From the NCBI GenBank assembly GCA_025451425.1, contig JANWKK010000158.1, positions 1 through 11,168 on the forward strand: a stretch of DNA of 11,168 nt. The letters run 5' to 3'. The first letter of the stretch is position 1. Each line of letters begins with the position of its first letter. The position numbers were made by a program, and so were the translations under genes. Below are positions 3,097 through 10,119 of the stretch, one piece after another. Under the pieces are notes generated by a model, which was not told the DNA's origin, made no database searches, and saw nothing but the letters and a program-made list of their open reading frames with translations. The stretch comes from Gemmatimonadaceae bacterium. GTDB taxonomy: Bacteria; Gemmatimonadota; Gemmatimonadetes; Gemmatimonadales; Gemmatimonadaceae.

Positions 3097-3174
3097 AGGT
3101 GCTAGGTGATAGGTGCTAGGTGCTAGTGCTTTTCCGTCGTTCCCTCGCACCCAGCACCAAGCACCGAGCACCTG
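3097..3174. repeat. Inverted heptamer array A (unit AGGTGCT) between sdaAB and sdaAA
   Basis: On the plus strand four tandem heptamers fill 3097-3124: AGGTGCT, AGGTGAT, AGGTGCT, AGGTGCT, followed by a partial AGTGCT. After a loop of about 21 nt, four heptamers of the reverse complement fill 3146-3173 (core GCACC with a varying two-base joint). The outer unit pairs perfectly (3097-3103 with 3167-3173) and the whole arm matches at 23 of 28 positions, mismatches falling mainly in the joints. The array takes up nearly all of the 91-bp gap: it ends 7 nt before the sdaAA ATG and 6 nt after the sdaAB stop. CTAG, rare elsewhere in the window, occurs three times here. It does not resemble an insertion sequence end and codes for nothing plausible. 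Confidence 0.85.
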
Positions 3175-3180
3175 GCTTCT

Positions 3181-3855
3181 TCATGCCGAAACCTTATCCA
3201 ACCGGAACGCCCACTTTACCCACGACAGCTCGCGGATCTCATCTCTCACCCTCTCGTCCGGGACGTCGTCGGTCTCGATGACCATGAAGGCATCGCCGCC
3301 GCGCTCTTTTCTCGTTAGGCGCAGCGTCGCAATGTTGATGTGATGGTCGGCGAGAATGCCGGCGATCCGGGCAACCGATCCGGGAATGTCCTCGGCGACG
3401 AGCACGATCGTGTGATAATTGCCCGTCACCTCGACGGGATAGCCGTCGATCTCGGTGACGACCACGCGGCCAGCACCTAGCGAGGATCCGACCATCACCG
3501 ACTTGCGATCGCCGCGTTCGACCGAGATCCGCGCTGTATTCGGATGCACCACACCCTCTTCGCCGAGCTTCGTCTTCTCGAATCGGTAGTCGAGCCCTTC
3601 GCGCTCGGCGATCTCGAGTGATGTTCGTAAACGCTCATCGTCCGGCCGAAAGCCCATCAGCCCGCCAACGATCGCTTTGTCCGTACCATGACCTTCGCCC
3701 GTTCGCGCAAACGAGCCGTGAAGCTCGATGCGCGCCCGCTCGGGCGTGCCGCCGACCAGACAGCGCGCGAGTAATCCAATGCGGCAGGCTCCAGCCGTAT
3801 GCGAGCTGGAGGGACCGACCATCACTGGGCCGATGATATCGAGAAGGCTAACCAT
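3181..3855 (-). CDS. sdaAB: L-serine dehydratase, iron-sulfur dependent, beta subunit with ACT domain
   Basis: Second subunit of the iron-sulfur L-serine dehydratase. The 224 residues match the family (about 220). The N-terminal SDH-beta domain shows MVSLLDIIGPVMVGPSSSHT; the GPSSSHT stretch (residues 14-20) and FARTGEGHGTDKA (49-61) are highly conserved in the family. Residues about 147-220 form an ACT domain (YHTIVLVAEDIPGSVARIAG, then HHINIATLRLTR), typical of amino-acid sensing, so serine may regulate the enzyme. ATG at 3855 starts the conserved N-terminus; a weak GAG lies upstream. It follows uvrA by 36 nt on the same strand and precedes sdaAA, from which it is separated by heptamer array A. 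The order beta then alpha is common. Unusual only in following uvrA; the spacing suggests read-through but this is unproven. Confidence 0.95.
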   Translation of the reverse strand: MVSLLDIIGPVMVGPSSSHTAGACRIGLLARCLVGGTPERARIELHGSFARTGEGHGTDKAIVGGLMGFRPDDERLRTSLEIAEREGLDYRFEKTKLGEEGVVHPNTARISVERGDRKSVMVGSSLGAGRVVVTEIDGYPVEVTGNYHTIVLVAEDIPGSVARIAGILADHHINIATLRLTRKERGGDAFMVIETDDVPDERVRDEIRELSWVKWAFRLDKVSA

Positions 3856-3865
3856 GGTTCAGCTC

Positions 3866-3877
3866 TGTCATCCTGAG
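3866..3877 (+). repeat. Fragment resembling the TGTCATCCTGAG dispersed repeat
   Basis: The 36-bp gap between uvrA and sdaAB contains TGTCATCCTGAG, which I recall as the beginning of a short repeat seen between genes in many bacterial genomes, recognisable when translated as LCHPERSEG. Here the plus-strand reading is LCHPE and then diverges, so at most a remnant is present. Recognised from memory, with only this one copy in the window. Confidence 0.3.
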
Positions 3878-3891
3878 TGCACTGGTAAGCG

Positions 3892-6732
3892 TTACCCGAT
3901 GGCCGAAAGTTCTCGCCTTGACTGCCGCTTCCGCTCGAGCAACGGCTTGAGGTAAATCCCCGTATGACTCTCCTCGATTTCCGCGACTTCTTCCGGCGTC
4001 CCCGCGGCGACAACCGTGCCGCCGCGCGTCCCGCCCTCCGGCCCGAGGTCGATGATCCAGTCGGCCGTCTTGATCACATCGAGATTGTGTTCGATCACAA
4101 GCACCGTGTTCCCGCGATCCACGAGTCGATGCAACACATCGAGCAAGAGCCGCACATCCTCGAAGTGTAGTCCAGTCGTTGGCTCGTCGAGGATGTAGAG
4201 CGTTCGGCCGGTGTCGCGCTTCGACAGCTCGGTCGCGAGCTTGACCCGTTGCGCCTCGCCGCCCGAGAGCGTCGTCGCGCTCTGGCCAAGGTGGATGTAG
4301 CCGAGGCCGACGTCGTTCACCGTCTCTAACTTTTGGCGAATCCGCGGCTGATTCTCGAAAAAGTGCAGCGCGTCCTCGACCGTGAGCTCCAAGACATCCG
4401 CGATGCTTTTTCCGCGGAATCGCACCTCGAGTGTCTCTCTATTGTACCGCTTTCCCTTGCAGACCTCGCACGGGACGTAGACGTCGGGCAGAAAGTGCAT
4501 CTCGATCTTCACGAGGCCGTCGCCCTGACACGCCTCGCATCGCCCGCCCTTCACATTGAAGGAGAATCGGCCCGGACCGTAGCCGCGAATCTTCGCTTCC
4601 GGCAATTCGGCGAACAGCTCACGGATCGGCGTGAAGAGTCCCGTGTAAGTCGCCGGATTCGATCTCGGCGTTCTACCAATCGGGCTCTGATCGATGTCGA
4701 TGACCTTGTCGATATGCTCGAGTCCCGTGATGCGCCGGTGCGCGCCGGGAATCACCCGCGCGCGATAGAAATGACGCGCCAGCGATCGGTGGAGGATGTC
4801 TTCGATCAACGTCGACTTGCCCGAGCCGGAGACGCCCGTGACAGCAACGAACACGCCTAACGGCACCTCGACGTCGAGGTTTTGCAAGTTGTGCTCGCGC
4901 GCGCCTTCGACACGGATCACCCGCCGCGCATCGACCGAGCGCCGACCGCTCGGGGTCCGAATCTCCATCTCGCCGCTCAGATACTTGCCCGTGATCGAGC
5001 TCGAGTTCTGGGTGATGTCGCGGATGGTCCCGACAGCGATCACTTCTCCACCGTGCTTCCCCGCTCCCGGGCCGAGGTCGATGATGTAATCCGCGGCGCG
5101 CATCGTTTCCTCGTCGTGCTCGACGACGATGACAGTATTCCCGAGATCCCGAAGTTGCTCGAGGGTGGCTATCAATCGCGCATTGTCGCGCTGATGTAAT
5201 CCAATAGAGGGCTCGTCGAGGATGTACAATACACCGACCAGCCGCGAACCGATTTGCGTGGCAAGACGAATGCGTTGCGCTTCGCCGCCGGACAGCGATT
5301 CGGCCGCTCTGCCTAACGTCAGGTAATCCAACCCGACGTCGACGAGGAAGCGAAGCCGCTCTCGCACTTCCTTGAGAATCGGACCGGCGATCTCGGGATC
5401 GATGCCTGGTCGTCCGTTGCCGCGTACCGGCACCTTCTCGAAGAACTCCAGCGCCTCGGTGACTGGAAGCTCGGTCAGCTCACCGATGTTTCGGTCAGCC
5501 ACGGTTACCGCGAGCGCTTCGCGCTTGAGCCGGCGTCCGCCACACTCGGCGCACGGCACGGCGACCATATAGGCCTCGAGCTCGGCGCGGACGGTATCCG
5601 AGTCCGTCTCTGCATAACGACGCTCGATGTTGGCGAGGACGCCCTCCCACTCGAACTCGCCCTTTTTCTTGCCGCCGTCGCCGCCGAGGATCGTGTCGCG
5701 CACGCTCTTCGGCAGCTCCCCCCAGGGCGCATTGAGATCGAACTTGAGGGCTCGCGCAATCGCCGGCAGTACGATCTTGCGCAGGTAGCCCTGAGGCTCA
5801 CCCCACGGAATGATTACGCCCTCCAAAATCGAGATGCGCGGATCCCCAAGGATGAGCTCCTCGCTCACGCGACGCCGAGTGCCCAATCCTCCACATGCGG
5901 GACAGGCGCCAAACGGCGAATTGAAAGAGAAGTGACGCGGCTCCAGCTCCGGCAGCGAGATGCCGCACGTCGGACAACCGTACCGCTCTGAAAACAGCTC
6001 GACGTGCTCATCGTCGGCTCGGCTCACTTGCACGAGTCCATCTGCGAGCTTGAGCGCAGTCTCCAGTGAGTCCGCAAGTCGTCCGCGATCTTCGGCGCGA
6101 ACTACAAGCCGGTCGACCACGACCTCGATCGTGTGATTCTGCCGGCGATTGAGCTTTGGCGGATCAGAGACTTCGATCAGGTCGCCATCGACGTAGGCTC
6201 GAATGAATCCTTGCTTGCGAACTGTCTCAAAAAGCTCACGGAACTCTCCCTTCCGACCCTGAACGAGCGGCGCTCTGACCTCGATGCGTGCGCCCGGTGG
6301 CCATGTGAGAATGATGTCCGCAATCTGGCCGGCGCTCTGCCGCTGAACCGGTCGCCCGCAATTGGGGCAATGAGGCGTTCCAACACGGGCGTACAGCAGA
6401 CGCAAGTAATCGTAGATCTCGGTGACGGTTCCAACCGTCGATCGCGGATTGTGACCTGCGGTTTTCTGTTCGATGGAGATCGCCGGCGACAGCCCTTCGA
6501 TCGAGTCGACGTCGGGCTTTTCCATCAGCCCGAGGAACTGGCGCGCGTACGCCGACAGCGACTCGACGTATCGGCGCTGACCCTCTGCGTAGATCGTATC
6601 GAACGCGAGCGAGGACTTTCCCGAACCGGACAGGCCGGTGATCACGGTCAGCCGATCGCGCGGGATCCTGACGTCGATGTTCCGAAGATTGTGCTCGCGC
6701 GCGCCGCGAATGATCAGTGCGTCTTCTGCCAT
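3892..6732 (-). CDS. uvrA: UvrABC excinuclease subunit A
   Basis: DNA damage-recognition ATPase of nucleotide excision repair; dimerises, loads UvrB at lesions and acts with UvrC. The 946 residues equal a full-length UvrA. Both ABC modules are intact: Walker A GLSGSGKS at 33-40 and GVSGSGKS at 633-640, signatures LSGGEAQ at 490-496 and 822-828, and Walker B regions [10 protein letters not shown] and [10 protein letters not shown]. Zinc-binding pairs are C253/C256 with C277/C280 in the first module and C732/C735 with C755/C758 in the second; a further CPNCG pair near residue 122 and CAEC near 394 are also usual. ATG at 6732 gives the standard N-terminus ([20 protein letters not shown]). It is divergent from cutA across 134 bp that includes heptamer array B. 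No SOS operator was recognised, though LexA sites vary by phylum. Two CGTTAGGC words lie in this gene. Confidence 0.98.
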
Positions 6733-6778
6733 AACCAGGGAAAGCTGTGGCGCGGATGCGATCGAGACAAGGGAAGGG

Positions 6779-6866
6779 ATTGTTGGTGGTTGGTGGTTGC
6801 CGTCCGGCCGCTGTGCGAGCGTTGGTAGATTTCACGAATCACCAACCACCCGTCGCCAACAACCCA
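6779..6866. repeat. Inverted heptamer array B (unit GTTGGTG) in the uvrA-cutA divergent gap
   Basis: The left arm has GTTGGTG at 6782-6788 and again at 6789-6795, then GTTGCCG. The right arm (6840-6866) has CACCAAC, CACCCGT and CGCCAAC, the reverse complement of the same degenerate heptamer. The best register pairs 6785-6798 with 6837-6850: 11 perfect base pairs, then a G-U, then two more pairs. A further isolated unit GTTGGTA lies in the loop at 6821-6827. The right arm ends exactly at the GTG start of cutA; the left end is 46 nt from the uvrA start. The gap must also hold promoters for both genes, but no convincing -35/-10 pair was seen. Confidence 0.8.
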
Positions 6867-7199
6867 GTGCACACCGACGCCATCGTCGTTCTCACGACCG
6901 TCGCCTCCGAAGATGAGGCTGTGAAACTCGTACGAACTTTGCTCGAGCGACGCCTCATCGCGTGCGGCACGCTGCTGCCGCGTTCCCGGTCGCTTTATCG
7001 CTGGCAAAGCAAGATCGCTGACGAGAGCGAGGTCGTGGTGCTCCTCAAAACGCGCTCCGCGCGCCTCGAGTCATTGCAGAACGCATTTGGAGAGCTGCAC
7101 CCGTACAAAGTGCCGGAGCTGCTCGCGTTGCCGGTTGCGGCAGGGTTAGGCAAGTACCTCGATTGGATCAACGGCGAGACTTCTTTGGCCTTGGCGTGA
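6867..7199 (+). CDS. cutA: CutA1-family divalent ion tolerance protein
   Basis: Small trimeric cytoplasmic protein of the CutA1 family, linked to copper and divalent cation tolerance in Escherichia coli, although its exact function remains disputed. With GTG at 6867 the protein is 110 residues, the usual size. It shows the family beta-alpha-beta core: [20 protein letters not shown] at the start, then [16 protein letters not shown] (the YRW-x-x-KI motif), VVVLLKT, and [14 protein letters not shown] followed by YLDWI at the end. An in-frame extension to 6747 exists, but it translates heptamer array B and adds 40 residues without family character, so I reject it. No Shine-Dalgarno sequence precedes GTG; the repeat arm ends there. 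It is the first gene of a coupled four-gene run; its stop overlaps the next start as GTGA. Confidence 0.93.
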
Positions 7200-7981
7200 A
7201 GATGAAGCAGTCGAAGAACCTGCCGGGACAGTCCGAGCAGATAAGTGAGCCGGAGAGCGTGCAGCAGTCCGACGAGCAGACATCGTTAGAGATCGAGCGA
7301 ACGAGCCCGTCGATTGCCGCGCCACTCGCTGACGTACCGATCAAGGCGCCCGTCGCTCACGTGGAACGAGACGCTAACCCGCTCGCCCGCGCTGCCGAGC
7401 TCGCGAGAAACGGCGATCTCAGGGAAGCGGCGAGCGCGTACCGCGCCTACATCACGCGTCATCCGGACGACGTCTCCGCTCGGCGCGGGCTGGCGGGCGT
7501 TCTCGGGCAAAATGGCGATTTGATCGGCGCGGTTGGTGAGCTCGGACGAGCGATCGACGCGCAGCCCGACGACATTTCGCTGCTTTGCGACCGAGCGGCG
7601 GTGCAGATGTCGCTGCAGCGCTACGAACAGGCCGAAACCGACCTGCGGCGCGCGACGAAGATCGACGCAGACAGCGCCGAAGTCCTGTTCAACCTCGGCA
7701 TGTTGTTCTGTAAGAAGGCGCGTTGGCGCGAGGCGATCGAACCGTTGCAACGTGCCGTGGAGCGCGATCCCTCCAACCCGCAGGGGCACTATTACCTCGG
7801 CGAAGCGTACAACCAGACCGACCAGAGCAAGCTCGCGTTGGCATCGTACGAAGAGGCGGCAAAGCTCCAGCCGACGAATTACCGTGCCCTGAAGGGCGTG
7901 GGAATCGTCCTCGACAAGCTAGGGCGGCCGGCTGAAGCCACCGCCGCATACCAGAGAGCTCGAGAAGCCCAACGACGGTGA
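7196..7981 (+). CDS. TPR-repeat protein
   Basis: Predicted soluble protein-binding scaffold of about 261 residues. The first 60 or so residues are polar and low in complexity with no signal peptide. Six consecutive 32-34 residue tetratricopeptide repeats follow at about 61-92, 93-126, 127-160, 161-194, 195-228 and 229-261; typical signatures are LGMLFCKKARWREAIEPLQRAVERDP and YYLGEAYNQTDQSKLALASYEEAAKLQP, shown here only as spacing guides with A-x-x-Y/L and P at the ends. The repeats run to the C-terminus, so there is no extra catalytic domain. Start choice: GTG at 7196 overlaps the cutA stop as GTGA, matching the two junctions that follow; ATG at 7202 would shorten it by two residues and ATG at 7163 would lengthen it by 11. 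Partners are unknown, but the coupled neighbours (macro-domain and transglutaminase-like proteins) are candidates. Confidence 0.85.
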   Translation: MKMKQSKNLPGQSEQISEPESVQQSDEQTSLEIERTSPSIAAPLADVPIKAPVAHVERDANPLARAAELARNGDLREAASAYRAYITRHPDDVSARRGLAGVLGQNGDLIGAVGELGRAIDAQPDDISLLCDRAAVQMSLQRYEQAETDLRRATKIDADSAEVLFNLGMLFCKKARWREAIEPLQRAVERDPSNPQGHYYLGEAYNQTDQSKLALASYEEAAKLQPTNYRALKGVGIVLDKLGRPAEATAAYQRAREAQRR

Positions 7982-8481
7982 TCCGAGTCTGCATCGATGA
8001 TCTCGCGTTCTTCGACGGAGAGGCAATCGTCCGGCCGGTGAACGAAGATCTCGGTGCGACGACGCCGCTGCTCCGGCGGCTCGAGCTCGCCGCGGGGACG
8101 CAATTGCACGACCAGATTCGTCTTCAGGAGCCGCTGCCGGTCGGTGCAGCCGTCGTCACAGGCGCGGGAGCACTGTCCGCACAGCTTCTCGTAAGCGCCG
8201 TTGTGATGAGCCGCACCGAGCGCGTGACGTCGGACTCCGTGCGGCGCGCGCTGGTGAGTGCATTTCAGCGCGTCGAATCCTGGCAGATCAAGCACGTCGC
8301 GATTCCCCCGTTCGGCCTTGGCGCCGGGAACCTCGAGGTCGACGAGAGCGCCAAAATCATGCTGGGCGTGATTGCTCAGCATCTTCTCGGGGCACGGTAC
8401 CCCGAGACTATCACGCTCGTCGCCGAGACCGCTGAGGAAGAGCGGGCTCTCTCGGCCGCGCTCGCGCGCAGCGGACTATGA
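7978..8481 (+). CDS. Divergent macro-domain-like protein
   Basis: A 167-residue soluble protein that I read as a distant macro (ADP-ribose/nucleotide-binding) domain. Support is general: the size; an early strand followed by an N-containing loop (AIVRPVNEDLG, where canonical macro domains have VNAAN); the order of a central PLPVGAAVVTGAGAL strand-turn resembling the G-x-A-x-x-T-x-G region; then SDSVRRALVSAFQRVESWQIKHVAIPPFGLGAGNL, like the helix-strand-glycine-loop near the domain end (canonical A-x-P-x-x-G-x-G). The usual catalytic/binding asparagine pair and the first GGG loop are not conserved, so hydrolase activity should not be assumed. GTG at 7978 overlaps the TPR gene stop (GTGA), and its own TGA overlaps the next ATG (ATGA), which argues for coordinated synthesis of the four proteins. 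It could instead be an unrelated alpha/beta protein. Confidence 0.6.
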   Translation: MIRVCIDDLAFFDGEAIVRPVNEDLGATTPLLRRLELAAGTQLHDQIRLQEPLPVGAAVVTGAGALSAQLLVSAVVMSRTERVTSDSVRRALVSAFQRVESWQIKHVAIPPFGLGAGNLEVDESAKIMLGVIAQHLLGARYPETITLVAETAEEERALSAALARSGL

Positions 8482-10043
8482 TCGCGCGTCGCCGTTTCAC
8501 GAAGCCGCGAGCGCTGACTGCCCTGCTCGTGCTGCTCCTGTGGGTTGGCGGCCTCGGTTTTCTCGTTAGGCGCGAATATTTCCGGCCGAATACCGAGCGT
8601 CTCGCGGAAGCGGCGCTACGCGTTTCTCCCGGTGCCGTCTATTACGCGGTGATGCAAGGGAGCCGGCAAATCGGCTTTGCGTCGTCGACGATCGATACGG
8701 CGACGACGACCATCTCGGTCGATGACTATCTCGTCGCCGATCTGCCGGTAGGCGGTCGCACGCATCGCGCGTCTGCGCGCACGCACGTCGTGCTCACGCG
8801 TGCCCTGCGCACGAAAGCATTCGTGGTCACCTTCGAGGGCGACGCCGGACCAATCATTGCTCGGGGCCGCGTGCTCAATGACAGTTTGCTCATTCTCATG
8901 CTCGCCACGGGCAGTGACGTTCCGGTGGACACGCAGCGAATCAAGCTCTCCGGGCCGATCCTTCTGCCAACGTTGCTTCCTCTCGCGGTCGCGCTGGGTG
9001 AACAGCCGAAGGTCGGTCATACGTACAAGCTCCCCGTGTTCGATCCGGTTGGCCTCACCCCGCGCGAGGTCTCACTGAACATCGCGGCCGAATCAAGTTT
9101 CGTCGTCGACGACAGCTCCGCGCTCGATCGAGCGACCGGGAGTTGGCGTGGCGTGCAGCCGGATACGCTCCGCGCGTACCGAGTCGTTACCGACACTGGT
9201 GCGGGCGCTGCGGGCTTCAGCGGTTGGATCGACGAGCAAGGACGCGTCGTCCAAACGTCGCAGCTTGGTTTCGAGCTGCGACGTCTCCCGTACGAGGTCG
9301 CCTTCGAGAACTGGCGGCTCGCGAGTGCAAAAGGTGCCGCGCCGATCTCAGAGGATCGTGACATGCTCGAGACGACGGCGATCGGCGCGAATCGACGTCT
9401 CGATTCAAGTATCACCTCACTTCGCGTCACGTTAGGCAACGCCGACTTGCGCGGCTTCGATCTGACGAGCCCTCGCCAGCGAATGCACGGCGACACGCTG
9501 CTGGTGACCCGCGAGCTGCCGGAGGCGCTGGTTGCTGGGTACGCGCTGCCCGACGGCGGGCGGAAGATGATGCCCGAGCTCACGATGGCCGAGCCACTCG
9601 TGCAGAGTAATCATCCGGACATCGTGCGTCTCGCAAGGCGACTCAGCGGCGGGCAGCGGGATCCTCGCGTTGTCGCCGAGCGAATCAATCAGTGGGTTTA
9701 CGATTCGCTCACGAAGCGTATCACTTTTGGTATTCCGAGCGCACTTCAGGTGCTGCGTGCACGCGGCGGCGATTGCAATGAGCACGCGCAGCTGTTCGTC
9801 GCGCTGGCGCGCGCCGCTGGGATCCCCGCACGTGTCGATGCCGGCCTCGCCTACATCGACGGCAAATTCTACTACCACGCCTGGCCGGAGATCTTCCTGC
9901 GCGACTGGGTGTCGGTCGATCCCACCTTCGGTGAGTTTCCGGCAGACGCGGCGCACTTACGCTTCACTGTCGGCGGATTGGGACGCCAGGCAGAGATGAT
10001 TCGTCTTATGGGGAGACTGAAGCTCAACGTGCTGAGGGGCTAG
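8478..10043 (+). CDS. Membrane-anchored transglutaminase-like (papain-fold) protein
   Basis: A 521-residue protein with an N-terminal membrane anchor and a C-terminal transglutaminase-like domain. After a basic start (MIARRRFTKPR), residues about 12-30 are hydrophobic with no obvious cleavage site, so the rest is probably outside the cytoplasmic membrane. Residues about 50-370 are beta-rich and not recognised; the pattern resembles long extracytoplasmic regions that precede such domains. Residues about 380-490 carry a complete catalytic triad: C433 in GGDCNEHA, H467 in YYHAWPEI and D481 in VSVDPTFGEFPAD. Bacterial relatives are mostly proposed proteases or crosslinking enzymes with unknown substrates. 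ATG at 8478 overlaps the macro-like gene stop. The stop TAG (10041-10043) lies inside heptamer array C. Two CGTTAGGC words fall in this gene. Confidence 0.87.
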   Translation: MIARRRFTKPRALTALLVLLLWVGGLGFLVRREYFRPNTERLAEAALRVSPGAVYYAVMQGSRQIGFASSTIDTATTTISVDDYLVADLPVGGRTHRASARTHVVLTRALRTKAFVVTFEGDAGPIIARGRVLNDSLLILMLATGSDVPVDTQRIKLSGPILLPTLLPLAVALGEQPKVGHTYKLPVFDPVGLTPREVSLNIAAESSFVVDDSSALDRATGSWRGVQPDTLRAYRVVTDTGAGAAGFSGWIDEQGRVVQTSQLGFELRRLPYEVAFENWRLASAKGAAPISEDRDMLETTAIGANRRLDSSITSLRVTLGNADLRGFDLTSPRQRMHGDTLLVTRELPEALVAGYALPDGGRKMMPELTMAEPLVQSNHPDIVRLARRLSGGQRDPRVVAERINQWVYDSLTKRITFGIPSALQVLRARGGDCNEHAQLFVALARAAGIPARVDAGLAYIDGKFYYHAWPEIFLRDWVSVDPTFGEFPADAAHLRFTVGGLGRQAEMIRLMGRLKLNVLRG

Positions 10044-10119
10044 AGCGTGGGGCCAGGGGCTAGGGTGAACGATCCGGCTCGTGCCCCTAGGCCGCTACTC
10101 CCTAGCCCATCGCCCCTCA
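10033..10119. repeat. Inverted heptamer array C (unit AGGGGCT) between the transglutaminase-like and ABC genes
   Basis: The left arm runs from AGGGGCT (10035-10041) through AGAGCGT, GGGGCCA and GGGGCTA to about 10065; the right arm (10083-10119) has degenerate units of the reverse complement at about 7-nt spacing. Perfect pairing occurs at 10033-10040 with 10112-10119 (8 bp, TGAGGGGC) and at 10057-10065 with 10100-10108 (9 bp, GGGCTAGGG), leaving a loop of 34 nt. The first unit supplies the TAG stop of the upstream gene, and the right arm ends one base before the ATG of the downstream ABC gene. CTAG occurs four times. Units are more degenerate than in array A, with one joint only six bases long. 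Confidence 0.78.

Follow-up and report, generated by a model that had tools for sequence, protein, structure and literature searches.

Inverted short-tandem arrays between genes of a Gemmatimonadaceae bacterium as probable IVP-less copies of a mobile element with an IVP/S23 gene between tandem-repeat arms

Three intergenic arrays and their dispersion

We analysed a stretch of 11,168 nucleotides from a soil bacterium of the Gemmatimonadaceae (contig JANWKK010000158.1), referred to here as the window. Pfam searches showed that it encodes PspA, a protein with a CesT_Tir_1 domain, both halves of serine dehydratase, UvrA and CutA, as well as a TPR protein, a macro-domain protein, a transglutaminase-like protein and the ATPase of an ABC transporter. 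Three of its intergenic gaps harbour inverted arms of short tandem repeats, a G-rich arm followed by a spacer and a C-rich arm, which we designate arrays A, B and C (Table 1). The plan is clear in A and more degenerate in B and C. As argued below, the arrays are probably copies without an open reading frame, either non-autonomous or decayed, of a mobile element with inverted short-tandem arms, mostly of 7-bp units, whose full form carries an IVP/S23 gene between the arms.

Table 1. Arms of the three arrays, in positions of the window
Feature	Position	Strand	Basis
Array A, left arm, G-rich, GGTGCTA / GGTGATA heptamers	3097..3130	+	inverted-repeat search, Tandem Repeats Finder, score 15
Array A, right arm, C-rich, inverted	3144..3173	+	inverted-repeat search, Tandem Repeats Finder, score
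Array B, left arm, G-rich, GGTGGTT heptamers	6777..6799	+	inverted-repeat search, Tandem Repeats Finder; score 11
Array B, right arm, C-rich, inverted, degenerate	6843..6865	+	inverted-repeat search
Array C, left arm, G-rich, degenerate GGGGCTA units	10034..10065	+	inverted-repeat search, score 11, no period-7 call by Tandem Repeats Finder
Array C, right arm, C-rich, inverted	10077..10117	+	inverted-repeat search

The original prediction, made from the sequence of the window, described all three as inverted arrays of heptamers, and this holds in full for A. Its arms (3097-3126 and 3144-3173, 30 nt each) are 83% complementary around a 17-nt spacer, and Tandem Repeats Finder detected period 7 in both (3097-3130 and 3147-3172). 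The arms of B, 23 nt each, are 78% complementary around a 43-nt spacer, with period 7 detected in the left arm only (6782-6799). Array C is inverted (10049-10065 with 10100-10116, 88%; 10034-10048 with 10097-10111, 80%) and its units are degenerate: Tandem Repeats Finder found no 7-bp array in it, and a looser scan gave a single short 7-periodic stretch. We applied an ungapped inverted-repeat score with a threshold of at least 14 throughout, and A alone reached it. RNA folding gave z-scores of -5.6 for A (0 of 200 shuffles as good), -2.3 for B (5 of 200) and -2.5 for C (2 of 200). Array C starts within the frame 8478-10043, whose TAG stop codon (10041-10043) sits in the first array unit. By hand count, of the roughly 356 bases that are non-coding and lie outside the gap at 2043-2204, about 242 fall in the arrays, which thus make up most of this DNA, as had been predicted.

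The closest relatives of the window are Gemmatimonadota metagenome-assembled genomes, represented by the loci L001 (genome G001; query-protein identity 84%) and L002 (G002; 87%). The pattern (GGNGCTN)3 had 16 matches, spread over 11 places, in G001 and 50, spread over 20 places, in G002 (reversed-pattern controls, 0 and 4), and a single match in total across six other genomes (control, 3). GGKGSTW, the consensus of the original prediction, occurred three times in succession at 49 matches in G002 (control, 1) and at none in any of 60 further genomes from the phylum, a set to which G001 does not belong (control, 0-3 each). The notion of one common plan, dispersed and intergenic, is borne out, and with strict arrays at 31 places in the two relatives the arrays are not confined to the three of the window. 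Among these places, 13 have an inverted partner: at eleven the partner scores at least 11 and is no more than 250 nt away, L169 is a single array that is itself palindromic, and in L104 the partner lies past an IVP frame.

Chance expectation was evaluated in 921,404 bases, comprising the window and 56 related loci. We found 60 period-7 segments, 13 of which have an inverted partner with a score of at least 14 (about 9 elements in 7 sequences; from the window only A is counted). One dinucleotide shuffle of the same bases gave 12 such segments and none with a partner. At periods 4, 5, 6, 8, 9, 10, 11 and 13 the numbers of partnered segments were 0, 0, 0, 1, 4, 0, 0 and 0, respectively.

Other repeats accompany some of these arrays. 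In L109, L113 and L131, a second GC-rich hairpin, ending in ACTCCAAATA or a similar sequence, follows the one-sided GGTGCTA array and may belong to another family of dispersed repeats. The gene sdaAB of L002 is flanked by two oppositely oriented IVP-less elements (L002:1119-1240 and L002:1916-2115), which have arms of the AGCTATC type and share the core TTCGGAACGAAGCG; a similar core adjoins GGTGCTA arrays in L119, L123 and L168.

IVP/S23 genes between inverted arms

Concerning the gene carried by the full form, the family PF05635 (23S_rRNA_IVP, S23 or 'four helix bundle protein'; a homologue of solved structure is 2gsc, XCC0516) was matched in 8 of the 8 genomes tested first and in 34 of 61 genomes drawn across the phylum, two of which were also among the first eight. 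Matches were likewise present in 42 of the 48 genomes from which other loci came (three of these belong to the 61-genome set as well) and in 16 of the 22 genomes behind loci from other groups; the 14 control genomes had none. From about 180 distinct matches in the first 8 and the 61 genomes we sampled 106, namely the returned loci and 48 chosen ones, mostly strong and away from contig ends. Flanks of 350 nt on both sides were available for 98 genes, and the other 8 were dropped.

An inverted repeat with a score of at least 14 was present across the flanks of 66 of the 98 IVP genes. When flanks of different genes were cross-paired, the count was 1 of 294, and other genes of the phylum gave 7 of 279, the 7 including genes that adjoin arrays. 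Among the 66 left arms, period 7 was the strongest in 28 (shuffles would lead one to expect 3.5), 39 outscored all 20 of their shuffles, and G exceeded C in 56, the polarity also seen in A-C. Units vary among the IVP elements and include TCTGTGG, GTGGGAC, GGAGTCA, GGTGCTA and others. Outside the phylum, 22 of 29 loci had full flanks, and arms were found in 12 of these 22 as against 0 of 110 cross pairs. Comparison of these sequences shows an arm-IVP-arm architecture that is spread over several bacterial groups. A possible case from the clade of the window is L104 in G002, where GGTGCTA arms enclose a frame whose IVP domain is incomplete at the N-terminus, the stop codon lying in the right arm. 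At the level of genomes, a period-7 array was found in the fetched locus of 20 of 50 IVP-bearing genomes and 0 of 6 IVP-free ones (p about 0.06 by hand, with loci of differing lengths; L031, whose 'array' is a run of N, was left out).

Two IVP loci have flanks of another kind. In L086 (G001:C199) the gene is flanked on both sides by direct repeats of an approximately 17-nt unit of the GGGACTTCGCGC type, which are not inverted. In L218 it lies inside very long, imperfectly repeated inverted arms with a score of 186.

The extent of the element was examined in homologous IVP copies. L146 and L211 lie on different contigs of one draft genome (G055) and are 90% identical across 527 bp, a stretch that starts 126-128 nt ahead of the IVP domain and ends 25 nt past the stop codon. 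These limits coincide with the outer arm ends within 3 nt, and in this copy pair the unit spans the element from the outer end of one arm to that of the other. In three of the four other pairs that are homologous through most of the IVP frame the homology runs into a flank, and in one, which is armless, it stops near the frame. Within the IVP frame, the ratio of nonsynonymous to synonymous substitution rates is 0.07 between L146 and L211 and lies in the range 0.13-0.40 in the four other pairs, values that indicate purifying selection on IVP. In addition, seven pairs of loci from different genomes (L079/L165, L083/L163, L092/L094, L150/L154, L154/L201, L166/L201 and L201/L213) have a common flank and IVPs that are 35-64% identical. 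Different genomes thus carry different IVPs at the same sites, through either recurrent use of the sites or fast divergence.

Filled and empty sites

Gap A of the window lies between the serine dehydratase genes. In L001, L003, L004 and L011 this gap measures 21-24 nt and has no array; the window has an array of GGTGCTA units there, and L002 one of AGCTATC units. At gap C there is a 4-nt overlap of the flanking genes in L003, L004, L011 and L014, and the gap is occupied by a GGGGCTA-like array in the window and by GGTGCTA arrays in L001 and L002. Orthologous junctions are therefore either empty or filled, and the units of the fillings differ. At gap B, the window, L001 and L002 have arrays of differing unit, L040 and L043 have other inverted repeats (by eye), and no clean empty counterpart was identified.

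By tblastn, 37 plasmid records, predominantly from cyanobacteria, proved to contain IVP, and 16 of them were fetched (15 from cyanobacteria and one from Gemmatirosa). Arms with a score of at least 14 were present in 11 of the 16, a count made with no cross control, with heptamers such as GGGAGTA, GGGAACA, GGGTGTA and GGTGACA; no arms of this score were found at the loci L260, L262, L265, L269 and L270. The IVP genes are positioned between nrdB and nrdA, between cas6 and cas4 (two plasmids) and between cas10 and cmr3. STRR (short tandemly repeated repetitive) sequences are the intergenic heptamer repeats of Calothrix, and the original prediction held that such heptamers of heterocystous cyanobacteria are not arranged as inverted arms with units of the present kind. 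As regards the arrangement, the plasmid elements do not support this, as their IVP genes stand between inverted heptamer arms.

Five junctions on plasmids of Nostoc and other cyanobacteria occur in filled and empty versions, and some of the fillings are IVP-less arrays. Behind a gene with a TraM domain, L263 and L274 have an IVP element whose arms are built of GGGAACA units, L276 has an inverted array without IVP (score 19), L285 has an IVP-less element of AATTCAA units (score 18) with GTCA on both sides, and L275, L284 and L286 are empty. A second junction holds an IVP element with AGGAGTC-like arms in L277 and L279, is empty in L278 and L267, and has another small gene instead in L281. In L280, the IVP frame of the element with AGGAGTC-like arms is broken by an IVP-less array of 182 bp with a similar unit (score 20). 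Further filled and empty versions were seen in L267 as against L277/L278/L279, L272 as against L282/L283, and L258 as against L273. By this comparison, Nostoc plasmid sites exist in filled and empty states for both IVP-bearing and IVP-less forms. Thus, although the window itself had been thought to give no sign of mobility, its relatives do give some, in the arms flanking IVP, the filled and empty plasmid sites and the pair L146/L211. The absence of an adjacent transposase and of a matching named class was upheld.

As an observation apart, the IVP genes on the cyanobacterial plasmids L257, L266 and L268 are situated within CRISPR-cas clusters, twice in the order cas6/IVP/cas4 and once as cas10/IVP/cmr3.

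Origin of the arrays

Taking these results together, we infer that A-C are IVP-less copies of the arm-IVP-arm element, because they share its architecture and polarity, because gaps A and C behave as sites that can be empty, and because in their clade a frame with an IVP domain, although N-terminally incomplete, sits inside GGTGCTA arms (L104). In the mechanism that we propose, IVP would bind the hairpin of the arms, in the form of either RNA or single-stranded DNA, and would help to copy the element into gene junctions using host enzymes. Copies lacking IVP would move in trans, or arise through gene loss, and the arm units would turn over through slippage. Insertions may be tolerated because the transcribed arms would form a stem that RNase III can cut, by analogy with the rRNA intervening sequences (IVS) treated in parts of PMC4990558. 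We give roughly even credence to a wider proposal, in which IVP/S23 genes and intergenic heptamer repeats are the two halves of one widespread mobile class that operates without a known nuclease, transposase or reverse transcriptase. The protein would act on the tandem arms, IVP-less arrays including A-C would be non-autonomous members, and rRNA IVS would be a special case.

A number of observations weigh against regarding A-C as IVP-less copies. The window has no IVP gene, and B and C, both scoring 11, fall under the threshold. Of the 31 strict arrays counted in G001 and G002, 18 are one-sided, and the IVP domain of L104 is without its first fifth. At the threshold used, 32 of the 98 IVP genes have no arms, period 7 is the strongest in under half of the arms and many are not 7-periodic, and the association of arrays with IVP at genome level is only suggestive. 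L146/L211 is the only one of five pairs that is homologous through most of the IVP frame and ends at the arms. Neither an enzyme nor a rule of target choice emerged for the element. A target duplication of fixed length was considered and rejected, as none was seen by eye in the Nostoc filled and empty pairs: GTCA flanks the insertion in L285, there is none in L280, and lengths are inconsistent in the others. PMC4692102 states that the heptamer repeats treated there were generally not seen in association with mobile elements. Finally, slippage alone may be the origin of some arrays.

This last process could be extended to all of the arrays, as simple-sequence repeats grown by slippage with hairpins formed by template switching; IVP genes would simply sit in such repeats or capture them, and A-C would then have no descent from IVP elements. 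The differing units found across species in one gap and the one-sided arrays agree with such an origin, as does the interchangeability of arms inside one unit family: among 13 hand-picked elements of the GGTGCTA family, the mean score of an arm with its own partner was 19.8, compared with 20.2 for arms of other elements. We nevertheless consider it unlikely, as the arms of L146/L211 stop exactly where homology stops, the IVP-less inverted arrays of L280 and L285 are discrete insertions relative to intact or empty siblings, and inverted arms are in strong excess at IVP genes relative to other genes. By the same scores we rejected the idea that the two arms of an element are maintained as a matching pair, and this bears on the original suggestion of a structured RNA family, that is, regulatory hairpins (attenuators, terminators or mRNA stabilisers) selected between genes. 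The predicted stems are stable, and gaps A and C separate co-directional genes. On the other hand, gap B is flanked by divergent genes, orthologous gaps are often empty, and Rfam at the gathering threshold gave 0 matches over the whole window, by which a family described there was rejected; we regard this explanation as very improbable.

Dispersed intergenic hairpins also recall repetitive extragenic palindromes and bacterial interspersed mosaic elements (REP/BIME), which would be moved by a REP-associated tyrosine transposase (RAYT, Y1), or cassettes moved by a reverse transcriptase. Avd binds reverse transcriptase and nucleic acid. PF05635 resembles, and is related to, Avd, an accessory protein of diversity-generating retroelements, as stated in a section of PMC10053308. 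We can hardly credit either engine here. Y1_Tnp was found in none of 8 genomes, among them those of both nearest relatives, and a RAYT/REP origin was rejected on this count; these genomes are mostly drafts, in which single absences are weak. Across 61 genomes, again mostly drafts, reverse transcriptase occurred in 6 of 34 IVP-bearing and 8 of 27 IVP-free genomes, and as no association with IVP was seen it was rejected as the engine. Likewise, miniature inverted-repeat transposable elements resemble the present arrays in being small, intergenic and geneless with inverted ends, and in an apparent reliance on a larger relative. Unlike them, the present elements have no transposase parent or constant target duplication that we could find, and their ends are varying short tandem repeats.

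With regard to systems already known, the passages of PMC4990558 on rRNA IVS describe an S23 gene, terminal inverted repeats and excision by RNase III, in one case with a stem of 28 bp and tandem GACAGAT heptamers directly before the S23 frame, and term the function of the protein unknown. The present elements share with these IVS the protein family, the placement of the gene between terminal inverted repeats and the nearby heptamers. Whereas the IVS there sit within 23S (and 16S) rRNA genes, the present elements lie between protein genes, as do all three array gaps of the window; their arms are tandem units that vary per element, and IVP-less forms occur. Intergenic heptamers are also known: GGGGA(T/C)T in Nostoc (PMC4692102) and TAACTGA in Beggiatoaceae, cyanobacteria and Bacteroidetes (PMC4679880), in the portions of these papers that deal with repeats. 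The GGGAATC arrays of two Xanthomonas genomes include 70 and 75 convergent pairs, such a pair being termed an inverted repeat in the relevant part of PMC4692102, which does not support the earlier statement on the arrangement of known heptamer repeats. These known heptamers, including the STRR sequences of Calothrix cited in PMC4692102, resemble the present arrays in being intergenic, in their 7-bp units and in their many copies per genome; in these portions no IVP link or mobile-element origin is given, and the present unit is GGTGCTA-like.

Open-licence PMC articles, as far as their pertinent sections go, thus cover S23/IVP in rRNA IVS and intergenic heptamers; they yielded no description of intergenic IVP elements with tandem-repeat arms, PMC4990558 being the nearest, and no agreed origin for the heptamers of cyanobacteria, xanthomonads and Beggiatoaceae. 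Our data tie heptamer repeats to IVP/S23 across several bacterial groups, and the plasmid pairs from named cyanobacteria, one member filled and the other empty, make the origin of the heptamers and the function of IVP directly testable.

The remaining large gap of the window, 2043-2204, in which neither the inverted-repeat search nor Tandem Repeats Finder detected a heptamer array, contains a GC-rich palindrome, GGCCCGGGGTACGGGCCCCGGG, at 2113-2140.

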